A stretch of 64,000 nt of DNA. Source: Terriglobia bacterium. GTDB lineage: Bacteria; Acidobacteriota; Terriglobia; UBA7540. The notes under the pieces are model-generated. The model had not been told where the DNA came from. It worked only from the letters and a program-made list of their open reading frames with translations, and did no database searches. The translations under genes were made by a program, and so were the position numbers. How positions within the stretch are numbered: position 1 is the stretch's first letter; each line of letters begins with the position of its first letter. Below are positions 8,171 through 11,583 of this stretch, one piece after another. The stretch is from NCBI GenBank assembly GCA_020072925.1, contig JAIQGA010000001.1:1-64000 (forward strand). Direction: 5' to 3'.

Positions 8171-9331
8171 TCAGGCGGGAATGGCGGCTGCTTTGGGCTG
8201 ATAGACGCAGCGGGGCTCTCCAGCGAGGGGATCGCCCGTCAGGGCATAGGCGCGGGCGCGAGAGCCGCCGCAGACGTTGCGGAACTCGCACACGCCGCAC
8301 TTGCCCTTCAACTGCGAAGTGTCGCGCAGGGAAACAAAGAGGGGGGAATACCGGTAAATGTCGGCGAGCGACTGCCGCCGGACGTTGCCCGCCGAGACCG
8401 GCAGGAAGCCGCTCGGGAAGACCTCGCCGAAGTGCGAGACGAAGACGAAGCCCTTGGCATCGTTCAGGCCCCGTGGCGCGCGGCCGATGCCGTCGGACGC
8501 GTCTAGGCCGGGATAAGGTCGGCGGCGCGAGCTGTTGGAACCCGCATCGCCGCTGCCGGCGGCCGAGGCCCCTCGCCGCTCCGCAGTCCGTTGTTGGAGC
8601 AGATAGCGGCGATAGTGCTGCGCCTCCGTGGTTTTGATATCGAATTTCACGCGGCGCGAAACGTCATGAAGTCTCGCGAAGACCTCTTCGAATTCTTCCG
8701 CGCTGATCAGATCTGAAGTCTGGCCGCGCCCCGTCGGCACCAGAAAGAACACGCTCCAGAGCCTGATGTCGAGCGTCTCGAGCAGCCGCACGATGGCGTC
8801 GAAATCCGCGAGGTTCCGCCGGGTGATCGTGGTATTGATCTGCACGGGCAGGCCAAGCTCGCGCGCCCAGCGGATGGCGCGCAGCGTCCATTCATACGAC
8901 CCCGCCACGCGCCGGAACGCGTCGTGGATTTCCGCGCTCGATCCGTCCAGGCTGACGGCGAGGCGCGCCAGCCCGCGGCGCTGCAATTCCGCGATGGCCT
9001 CGCGCGTCAGGAGCGGCGTAGCGCTCGGCGTGAGCGAGGTCCGCACGCCGCGCGAGGTGGCGTACTCGATCAAATCGTAAATATCCGGCCGCTTCAGCGG
9101 ATCGCCGCCCGTCAGGACAAAGACCGGCACCTGCATCGCCGCGATCTCGTCGATCAGCCGCTTGCCTTCCTCGGTGGAGAGTTCCAGGGGATTGCGAAAC
9201 GGCTGCGCCATCGCCCGGCAGTGGACGCACGCCAGATCGCACGCCTGCGTCACCTCCCAGATCACAATGAACGGGCGCTCGTTGAAATCCAGCTTCGGCC
9301 GCTCTGCACGGGTTGTATCCCACTGCTCCAT
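8171..9331 (-). CDS. Radical SAM/SPASM protein, haem-d1/AhbD-like family
   Basis: 386 residues. The ATG at 9331 is preferred because GGGAG lies 7 bases before it. The radical SAM cluster motif is CDLACVHC (CX3CX2C) near residue 31, preceded by LDFNERPFIVIWEVTQ. The C-terminal SPASM region has CGVCEFRNVCGG and a last Cys at EPRCVY for auxiliary Fe-S clusters. The opening and overall length resemble the TIGR04053/NirJ/AhbD branch, whose characterised members act on haem-like tetrapyrroles. The actual substrate is unknown. It is transcribed away from a DUF542 gene and a DUF542-NnrS fusion, and a TGAC-N4-GTCA palindrome lies 60 bases upstream, so an NO-linked role is inferred. A Ser/Gly/Arg-rich linker near residues 255-300 is probably disordered. 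Confidence 0.85.
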   Translation of the reverse strand: MEQWDTTRAERPKLDFNERPFIVIWEVTQACDLACVHCRAMAQPFRNPLELSTEEGKRLIDEIAAMQVPVFVLTGGDPLKRPDIYDLIEYATSRGVRTSLTPSATPLLTREAIAELQRRGLARLAVSLDGSSAEIHDAFRRVAGSYEWTLRAIRWARELGLPVQINTTITRRNLADFDAIVRLLETLDIRLWSVFFLVPTGRGQTSDLISAEEFEEVFARLHDVSRRVKFDIKTTEAQHYRRYLLQQRTAERRGASAAGSGDAGSNSSRRRPYPGLDASDGIGRAPRGLNDAKGFVFVSHFGEVFPSGFLPVSAGNVRRQSLADIYRYSPLFVSLRDTSQLKGKCGVCEFRNVCGGSRARAYALTGDPLAGEPRCVYQPKAAAIPA

Positions 9332-9390
9332 CGATTGCTCCCTCATCTTGCTTCGCCGCCCATTGAACCATCCGGCATGGACCGCGCCAA

Positions 9391-9402
9391 TGACTCAAGT
9401 CA
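9391..9402. promoter_or_regulatory. TGAC-N4-GTCA palindrome upstream of the radical SAM gene
   Basis: Perfect inverted repeat TGACTCAAGTCA, ending 60 bases before the radical SAM ATG on the minus strand. A class II position (centre at -41.5) would place the -10 box near 9362-9367, where the minus strand reads TTCAAT (4 of 6 to TATAAT). The half-sites match the TTGAC/GTCAA core of CRP/FNR-type regulators such as DNR and NnrR. A twin site lies at 9588-9599. Confidence 0.55.
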
Positions 9403-9414
9403 CAGGGGAAGTCG

Positions 9415-9580
9415 ACAGTTGACAGTCGACAGTTGACAGTCACTGGCGGTCGAAAGTTGAAAGTCAAAAGTCGAAAGGCAATCGGCCATGGGACTTTGGG
9501 GTGGCCGACCTCTATCCTTGAATCAGCTGTTCCAGATTCTCGGCTGCCGACTTTTGACCTTCGACCTTCGACTTTCGACT
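9415..9580. repeat. Text-like repeats in the divergent promoter region
   Basis: Runs of GACAGTTGACAGTCGACAG (9411-9440) and GTCGAAAGTTGAAAGTC (9445-9478), then CTTTTGACCTTCGACCTTCG and CGACTTTCGACTCTG (9551-9584). They sit between the two palindromic operators of the divergent promoters and are the same word family found in other gaps of the window. Confidence 0.65.
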
Positions 9581-9587
9581 CTGCCTG

Positions 9588-9599
9588 TGACCGAAGTCA
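9588..9599. promoter_or_regulatory. TGAC-N4-GTCA palindrome upstream of the DUF542 gene
   Basis: Perfect inverted repeat TGACCGAAGTCA, ending 62 bases before the ATG at 9661. It has the same half-sites, the same central AA and nearly the same distance to its start codon as the site at 9391-9402 on the opposite flank. This symmetry argues for a true operator of a shared regulator. No strong -10 is visible (weak TAACCT near 9623). Confidence 0.55.
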
Positions 9600-9660
9600 T
9601 CGTGCCGGTTCCTACCCTCCATTAACCTCGAACCGTTCGAATTCGAAAGGAGAGAGTTCC

Positions 9661-9867
9661 ATGATTGAACCCACTATGAAGGTAGGAGATATCGCCAGGA
9701 TTTGGCCCGAAACGATGAAAGTCTTTGCGCGCTACGGGCTGGACCTTTGCTGCGGCGGGGTGCATCCGCTGAGTTATGCCGCGCAGAAGCACGGCTTTAA
9801 CCTGGAGAAAATGTTGCAGGAGCTGAACGCCGCCGTCGATGTCCCCAGCGTCGCTCCGCAGAGGTAA
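9661..9867 (+). CDS. Stand-alone DUF542 (ScdA N-terminal) protein
   Basis: 68 residues from the ATG at 9661, with AAAGGAGA 7-9 bases upstream. The frame is open further upstream but that part is repeat sequence. The whole protein is one ScdA_N/DUF542 domain: VGDIARIWPETMKVFARYGLDLCCGG with the diagnostic CCGG. In ScdA/YtfE/RIC proteins this domain precedes a di-iron hemerythrin domain that repairs Fe-S clusters damaged by NO or oxidants. No hemerythrin domain is present here. The next gene carries a second copy fused to a membrane protein, and the upstream palindrome suggests NO-type control. Confidence 0.85.
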   Translation: MIEPTMKVGDIARIWPETMKVFARYGLDLCCGGVHPLSYAAQKHGFNLEKMLQELNAAVDVPSVAPQR

Positions 9868-9924: not shown

Positions 9925-10000
9925 TTTTGCTTTTCAACCTTCGACTTTTGACTTTCAACTCTAACTCTTGACTGTCAACTGTCGACTCTTAACTGTTTTC
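9925..10000. repeat. Text-like repeats before the DUF542-NnrS gene
   Basis: CAACCTTCGACTTTTGACTTTC, then CTCTTGACTGTCAACTGTCG type words. They separate the DUF542 gene from the fusion gene by 144 bases in total and belong to the repeat family seen in other gaps. Confidence 0.6.
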
Positions 10001-10011
10001 CCGAGGTCAAC

Positions 10012-11583
10012 ATGCCCAGCACCGAAAAACCTGCAATCCAGATCACGAAGATGACGAGCGTGGCGGAAATCGTGAAGCGCTGCCCCACCGCGCGCCGCAT
10101 CTTCGACAAATACGGCTTGAAAGGCTGTGGCGGCGAATACGGGCCGACGGAGCCGCTGGCGTTTTTCGCCGCGGTACACAAGGTCAACGTCGAAGCCCTC
10201 GTCGCTGAACTGAACGCCGAGATGGCGAATCCCACGCCCGACAAGTACGTTTACCAGGAATCGCTCGCCGACTACATCTACCGGCGATTCTTCAAGGCCG
10301 CGATTTTGATTATGCTCTCGATCGGCGGCCTGTGGGGGGCGGTGAATCTGCTGCAAATCGCGCTCGGCGCCAACTTCCTCCAGGTGCGCCTGATTCCCGC
10401 CATTCACGCGCACGCCCACGCCATGATCTTCGGCTGGGTAGGTTTGTTCGTGATGGGCTTCGCCTACCAATCGTTCCCACGCTTCAAGTACGTCACGCTC
10501 TGGCGGCCCGACCTCGCCAACCTGACGCTCGTCTTGATGCTCGTTGGCATTGTGAGCCGTGGCGCGGCGGAATTGTTGCAGCCCATGCCGGTGGGGATGG
10601 GCCTGGGGATTCTGGCCGCGGCCACGGAGTTCGCCGCCATCAGCCTGTTCGTCATCATCATCCTCAAGACGGCGCGGCAATCGATTGAGCCGCACAATCC
10701 CTACGAAAAGTTCATCTTCGGCGCGCTCTTCTGGTTCCTGGCGCAGGCGCTGCTGAGCGATTTCTTCTTCTTCGCCAAGGCGACCGCCGCGTCGCCGGAG
10801 GAATTCATCCGTCGCATGGCGCTGATCGACGGCCCGCTGCGCGACATGCAATTATTCGGCTTCGCCACGCTGATCATTGCGGGCGTCAGCCAGCGTTTTG
10901 TGCCCGCCGTCTACAGCCTCGGCAATCCCAAGCACGATCGCCAGACGCTGATTTTCTGGCTCATCAACGGCAGCCTGGTGCTTGCCGTCGCGAGCTACGT
11001 CCTGCTGCTCACCACCGGCAACATGCTGTTCGCCGCGGGCCTCGAGTTTGCTTACCTGCTGATGGTGCTCTGGGCGGTGCTGCTGGTGATGCAACTCCGC
11101 ATCTTCAGCAAGACCACCGAGCCCGACCGCAGTTGGAAATTCATCCGCGCGGCGTACGTGTGGCTGCTGTTTGCCATGGCCATGCTGCCGTTCTTCATGG
11201 TGTACGGCGTGCTGACGCATCAGGGCTTCGCGCACTCCTACATGGGCGCGCACCGGCACGCGTTCACGGTGGGCTTCATCAGCCTGATGATTCTGGGCGT
11301 CTCGGCGCGTGTGGTGCCGATCCTGGCGGGCGTCGACGCGAAGGACGTGAGCGCGCTGTGGGGGCCATTCATTCTCCTCAATGTCGGCTGCGCCGGCCGC
11401 GTGGGGCTGCAAATTCTCACGGATTTTCTCCCTCGCATCGCGTATCCGCTCGTCGGCCTCACGGGCTTCGTTGAGGTCACGGCGCTGGCGTGGTGGGGTC
11501 TGGAACTCTGGCACACCATGAATCTCTCCAAGACCCACCGCGCCAAGCTGCTCGGTGCGCCGCTGCCCGCTCCTGCCAAGTAG
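10012..11583 (+). CDS. DUF542 domain fused to NnrS-like multi-pass membrane protein
   Basis: 523 residues; GAGG lies 5 bases before the ATG. Residues about 13-71 are a DUF542-type domain (SVAEIVKRCPTARRIFDKYG, then GCGG in place of CCGG). From about residue 92 on there are roughly 12 transmembrane segments, with His-rich helices AIHAHAHAMIFGW (His132, 134, 136) and GAHRHAFTVGF that could bind haem or copper. This fits the NnrS family, haem/copper membrane proteins induced with nitrite and NO reductases and linked to NO tolerance; a more general haem-copper oxidase subunit-I-like fold is the alternative. Fusion to the same small domain encoded by the preceding gene ties the two together, probably in Fe-S or haem protection under nitrosative stress (inference). 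Confidence 0.72.
   Translation: MPSTEKPAIQITKMTSVAEIVKRCPTARRIFDKYGLKGCGGEYGPTEPLAFFAAVHKVNVEALVAELNAEMANPTPDKYVYQESLADYIYRRFFKAAILIMLSIGGLWGAVNLLQIALGANFLQVRLIPAIHAHAHAMIFGWVGLFVMGFAYQSFPRFKYVTLWRPDLANLTLVLMLVGIVSRGAAELLQPMPVGMGLGILAAATEFAAISLFVIIILKTARQSIEPHNPYEKFIFGALFWFLAQALLSDFFFFAKATAASPEEFIRRMALIDGPLRDMQLFGFATLIIAGVSQRFVPAVYSLGNPKHDRQTLIFWLINGSLVLAVASYVLLLTTGNMLFAAGLEFAYLLMVLWAVLLVMQLRIFSKTTEPDRSWKFIRAAYVWLLFAMAMLPFFMVYGVLTHQGFAHSYMGAHRHAFTVGFISLMILGVSARVVPILAGVDAKDVSALWGPFILLNVGCAGRVGLQILTDFLPRIAYPLVGLTGFVEVTALAWWGLELWHTMNLSKTHRAKLLGAPLPAPAK

Follow-up and report, generated by a model that had tools for sequence, protein, structure and literature searches.

Mirrored TGAC-N4-GTCA palindromes between a radical SAM gene and a DUF542-NnrS gene pair of a Terriglobia genome: probable class II activator sites of a putative nitric oxide response

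The two TGAC-N4-GTCA palindromes located between a radical SAM gene and the divergent DUF542 and NnrS genes are real and, by comparative evidence, functional, and each probably serves one direction of transcription as a class II activator site of a CRP/FNR-type protein, CRP_A, that would control a response to nitric oxide (NO) and iron-sulphur (Fe-S) damage. CRP_A is proposed to read GTGAC half-sites through its helix GTVRELVSR; in its active state it would bind with its centre near -41.5 at both promoters, recruit RNA polymerase, and turn on transcription leftward into the radical SAM gene and rightward into the DUF542-NnrS unit. This regulon may constitute a NO and Fe-S damage response including NnrS, RIC-type parts, and hemerythrins, with a quinol NO reductase in other families of the class. 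Comparison of genomes provides the sites, their orientation, the promoter geometry, the target genes, and the linkage to CRP_A, from which we infer the binding and activation by CRP_A and NO, or the damage it causes, as the signal. Judged from sequence, the same switch occurs across the class Terriglobia. The parts are of known kinds, while the operator type, the regulator clade, and the acidobacterial regulon are apparently new, as no earlier description of them was found in the full-text literature searched, which mostly does not cover subscription papers. Acidobacteria are abundant in soils. The operator together with its promoter spacing may render the acidobacterial NO response predictable from MAGs and inform reporter design, and genes without an assigned role (TIGR04053 radical SAM, DUF438-hemerythrin, fused DUF1858-NnrS) become tied to NO or Fe-S stress. 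PMC5900883 describes genomes of acidobacterial subdivisions 1 and 3 with NO reductase genes and without dissimilatory nitrate or nitrite reductases.

Within the window, which is the whole stretch of 64,000 nucleotides analysed, the left palindrome, TGACTCAAGTCA (9391–9402), belongs to an operator reading toward the radical SAM gene, GTGACTTGAGTCAT (9390–9403, minus strand), and the right palindrome, TGACCGAAGTCA (9588–9599), to one reading toward the DUF542 gene, GTGACCGAAGTCAT (9587–9600, plus strand). The distances of 60 and 62 bases to the start codons given by the first-pass annotation are correct, with the radical SAM start at 9331 (minus strand) and the DUF542 start at 9661 (plus strand); the protein starting at 9331 begins with MEQW and is preceded by AGGGAG, and the first ATG of its ORF is at 9346. 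The same annotation regarded both sites as perfect palindromes, which holds for the arms TGAC/GTCA but not for the N4 centres (TCAA and CGAA). The flanking bases are also asymmetric, and the left site (ATGAC..GTCAC) is the mirror image of the right one (GTGAC..GTCAT), so that each operator reads GTGAC..GTCAT toward its own gene. The operator pair by itself is statistically unremarkable, with two TGAC-N4-GTCA motifs found in the window versus 0.74 expected (15 of 100 shuffles reach two), and its significance comes from conservation in relatives. Genome-wide, the bare motif occurs 72 times in the 6.5-Mb assembly versus 50 times for the reversed control (1.4 times), and it was rejected as a predictor at this scale; a composite with a -10 element is needed.

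The radical SAM/SPASM protein (8171–9331, minus strand) is assigned to TIGR04053 with 498 bits (cut-off 395) and contains a radical-SAM domain in Pfam; no paper using the term TIGR04053 was among the literature matches listed. On the plus strand, a stand-alone ScdA_N/DUF542 protein of 68 aa (9661–9867), equivalent to the N-terminal domain of RIC/YtfE, is followed by NnrS with an N-terminal DUF1858/ScdA_N-like domain (10012–11583), and the two genes probably share one transcription unit. The divergent partner gene varies among genomes, being either radical SAM or hemerythrin, and the layout of one operator per direction is constant.

Of 33 acidobacterial NnrS loci, 32 have TGAC-N4-GTCA in the 700 bp preceding the gene, compared with 0 of 33 for the reversed control. 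General loss of the sites from related genomes that keep the gene, which the first-pass annotation had named as a refuting outcome, was therefore not seen. Among non-acidobacterial NnrS homologues, only one of 37 (L264) has the motif upstream, indicating that the switch does not travel with the NnrS gene. This comparison used 70 of 77 loci; excluded were L226 and L251, whose contigs lack the upstream region, and five loci from Chloroflexi (L267–L270, L272). The named relatives are acidobacterial genomes from metagenomes, mostly Terriglobia, and largely overlap the family genomes, so the two sets are not independent. Of the 39 family genomes, 26 encode the fused NnrS protein (E ≤ 0.001) and fewer the full-length type; all 20 full-length-type family loci examined (L001–L019, L027) carry at least one TGAC-N4-GTCA, and 12 of these 20 keep a mirrored operator pair within 300 bp. 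Fused DUF1858-NnrS proteins of about 40% identity also occur without the operator in Planctomycetes and others (L228–L263).

The consensus and promoter geometry rest on a set of 105 non-redundant oriented sites that face regulon-type genes, from which the repeat loci L031–L060 were left out. Read toward the gene, the consensus is (C/T)GTGAC-N-N-A-A-GTCAT-N-G, also given as CTGTGAC-N-AAA-GTCATCG, with A at the last two centre positions in 71% and 86% and G two bases past GTCAT in 80%. The DNR/NnrR-type site TTGAC-N4-GTCAA proposed by the first-pass annotation does not describe these operators, as the outer T appears in only one of 105 oriented sites and the arms are GTGAC/GTCAY; both window sites have two mismatches to it, and a search of the window with this motif gave no signal (20 matches versus 20.2 expected). 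Flanks of the G..T type were present in 56 of the 105 oriented sites, and among these a TANNNT element follows the palindrome at 23 nt in 30 and at 24 nt in nine (39 of 56), versus five occurrences in all at 19 offsets outside 22–24. After thinning the set at 60% identity, TANNNT remained at 23 nt in 24 of 46 and at 24 nt in seven of 46, whereas none of the 30 A..C-oriented sites has it at that spacing. Counting from a -10 element that begins at -12 places the palindrome centre at -41.5 or -42.5. A position near -41.5 is the classic one for a class II activator, and the spacing of 23–24 nt in 39 of 56 sites, with predicted -10 positions, is that of a class II activator promoter. In the window, the proposed -10 element TAACCT (9623–9628, plus strand) lies 23 nt past the right palindrome and fits exactly, with the start site expected near 9635; on the left, TTCAAT (9362–9367, minus strand) is proposed from the spacing rule at 23 nt past the palindrome and is weak, not matching TANNNT.

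In the genome carrying the window, composite sites include the right site itself (contig C41) and those of a hemerythrin gene (C35), a cupin gene (C339), and a FeoB-like gene (C285, 349 bp away), and a second NnrS gene (C355) is preceded by the site GTGACATTTGTCAC. The composite motif yielded 98 sites versus 12 in the control across the 39 family genomes, and its strict form yielded 56 sites, spread over 47 of the 200 Terriglobia class genomes, versus one in the control. Outside the family there are 33 strict sites, and 22 of them face genes for NO reductase, NnrS (fused or plain), RIC, TIGR04053 radical SAM proteins, or DUF438-hemerythrins. NO reductase is found under a strict site at L315, L324, L328, and L329, behind NnrS at L331, and behind a RIC-like fragment at L343; for the L315 protein, a PF22085 match and a score of 799 bits against solved quinol NO reductases confirmed the identity, and these NO reductases were named by Pfam and solved structures, not by NCBIfam. 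The motif scan around NO genes suggested by the first-pass annotation thus recovered nor and RIC among the targets, and NO reductase, NnrS, and RIC occur under one operator in the class as a whole; no hcp (by eye) or nir gene was recognised among the target genes. It is solely from these target genes that we infer NO as the signal. In the family itself, only two of 16 NO reductase homologue loci (L347, L357) have a nearby site, and most of the homologues are only about 40% identical to the regulated kind; the upstream DNA of the homologue in the window's own genome is off the contig. The other 11 of the 33 sites face different or unrecognised genes, namely L316 and L318 (ferredoxin and HemN-like by eye), L319 (SUF-associated Fe-S assembly), L320, L325, L332, L335, L345 (NapH-like ferredoxin), and L337–L339. 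The last three (in G161, G125, and G061) lie 450–1350 bp before cytochrome/molybdopterin-type genes that resemble alternative complex III, both by eye.

Six HTH_Crp_2 proteins above the cut-off are encoded in the window's own genome. The search for a CRP/FNR-type regulator yielded CRP_A as a candidate, as its gene (C35) is physically linked to operator sites, with 702 bp separating it from a composite site that precedes a hemerythrin gene. In the family, 14 of 26 CRP_A loci have a site and lie beside RIC, NnrS, radical SAM, or hemerythrin genes (15 had the motif, and one was dropped because the motif is inside another gene), and 13 of the 56 strict sites in the class are within 2 kb of a CRP_A match, compared with about 0.06 expected. 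A CRP_A homologue (E ≤ 1e-50) is present in 37 of 47 genomes with the strict composite versus 52 of 153 without it (p 6e-8), and outside the family in 20 of 30 versus 43 of 144 (p 2e-4), in Fisher tests that ignore kinship; at E ≤ 1e-50, a CRP_A match is lacking altogether from 10 of the 47 class genomes with the strict composite. CRP_A falls in the CRP/FNR superfamily (PF13545, 62.4 bits, cut-off 27) and reaches no NCBIfam named-family cut-off. The best fold matches of its predicted structure (pLDDT 84.8) include full-length CRP/FNR chains such as 4byy (Z 19.6, rmsd 15.2 over 226), HcpR 9day (Z 18.2), and DNR 3dkw (Z 17.0). In the recognition helix GTVRELVSR, R184, E185, S188, and R189 are identical in 29 of 29 CRP_A proteins, and the code of Rodionov (2005, PMC1274295), R180-G and E181-A, predicts the GTGA half-site observed. 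CRP_A is thus likely the regulator of these operators. The original proposal that one regulator switches both units gains partial support in that each unit has an oriented, conserved CRP/FNR-type operator and a CRP/FNR gene is linked to such sites.

Alternatively, the paralogue CRP_B (helix GTVRDLVSR) may bind the sites, alone or in addition to CRP_A, and the switch would then answer to low oxygen or redox state rather than NO, which we consider unlikely. The CRP_B helix is that of CRP_A save E to D, its gene in the window's own genome adjoins ferredoxin-like and hemerythrin genes, and G029 and G035 (95% complete) possess the sites with no CRP_A, only CRP_B appearing above E 1e-50. However, TGAC-N4-GTCA is near none of the four CRP_B-only loci (L192–L195), in contrast to the CRP_A loci, and in G013, G014, and G015, which have CRP_B but neither CRP_A nor fused NnrS, the sites are GC-centred GTGAC-N4-GTCAC and face other genes. 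A hemerythrin gene also follows the CRP_B gene at L064 (contig C310 of the same genome as the window), without a TGAC-N4-GTCA site. The GC-centred sites (GTGAC, a GC-rich centre, GTCAC) form a second class II set in G013–G015 and other family genomes (e.g. L273–L300, L310), where they precede universal-stress, pyruvate:ferredoxin oxidoreductase-like, cytochrome c-like, and phosphoketolase-like genes (by eye). They occur also in genomes without CRP_A and are perhaps the regulon of CRP_B.

In CRP_A, the likely regulator, Cys40 is conserved in 29 of 29, Cys109 in 27 of 29, and His112 in 26 of 29 proteins, and the 29 contain no conserved Met or invariant His, leaving heme sensing by analogy unsupported. 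A speculative reading, to which we give rather little credence, is that CRP_A forms a sensor class of its own for NO or Fe-S damage, with Cys40 and Cys109/His112 replacing the heme ligands of DNR and HcpR, the FNR cluster, or cAMP, and that it has its GTGAC arms in common with the paralogous regulator, so that an AA centre with GTCAT would mark the NO regulon and a GC centre with GTCAC a fermentation/respiration regulon, the two kinds of site differing solely in the N4 and one outer base.

FNR belongs to the same superfamily and resembles the present system in its N4-spaced arms and class II geometry, but CRP_A lacks the N-terminal cysteine cluster and scores 58.6 against 228 bits for the NCBIfam FNR model. 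DNR/NnrR are likewise CRP/FNR proteins with NnrS, NO reductase, and RIC (DnrN) as targets; their half-site is TTGAC rather than GTGAC, and no His is invariant in the 29 CRP_A. HcpR is also a CRP/FNR protein with predicted NO-response targets, and Rodionov et al. (2005, PMC1274295) describe the Desulfovibrio form as reading wTGTGAnnnnnnTCACAw with R180/E181. Its base code agrees with that of CRP_A, Arg/Glu recognition residues and a GTGA half-site being shared by both. In contrast, hcp and frdX, core targets of the HcpR regulons in that account, were not recognised here among the targets by eye, and Met68, given as the heme ligand of P. gingivalis HcpR in PMC12750200, has no conserved Met counterpart in CRP_A. 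The closest solved sequences to CRP_A are mycobacterial and corynebacterial CRP/GlxR. GlxR and Rv3676 recognise a TGTGA-type half-site, and CTGTGAC-N4-GTCAC includes the CRP half-site and spacing, so that one could suppose a carbon regulator to use the sites as conventional cAMP-CRP boxes (TGTGA-N6-TCACA). This is very improbable, because the Arg in the phosphate-binding stretch of Rv3676, which presumably takes part in binding the cAMP phosphate, is Tyr in 29 of 29 CRP_A, the CRP equivalog score is 78.5 bits against a cut-off of 266, and the target genes are NO- and Fe-S-related, unlike those of a carbon regulator or of actinobacterial CRP.

The approximately 170 bases separating the operators consist of degenerate GTCGAAAGT-type repeats in inverted arrangement (9409–9580), which lie outside the operators, are dispersed in the genome, and have 68 matching stretches there, the query itself included. 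That the palindromes are part or a by-product of this repeat is barely credible: although the two arms of the entire 9380–9612 region align in inverted orientation with a score of 57 versus a largest shuffled score of 42, the other genomic copies end at query positions 30–212, none extending into either palindrome (query 17–28 and 214–225), and in relatives the operators are 20–200 bp apart. Chance, compatible with a bare motif close to its chance level in window and genome, is a negligible explanation given the conservation at NnrS loci, the -10 spacing, and the class-wide composite counts. Degenerate GTCGAAAGT/GTTGACAGT repeats, often inverted, are dispersed through intergenic regions genome-wide, and the window holds, besides 9409–9580, a further stretch at 9940–9996 between the DUF542 and NnrS genes.
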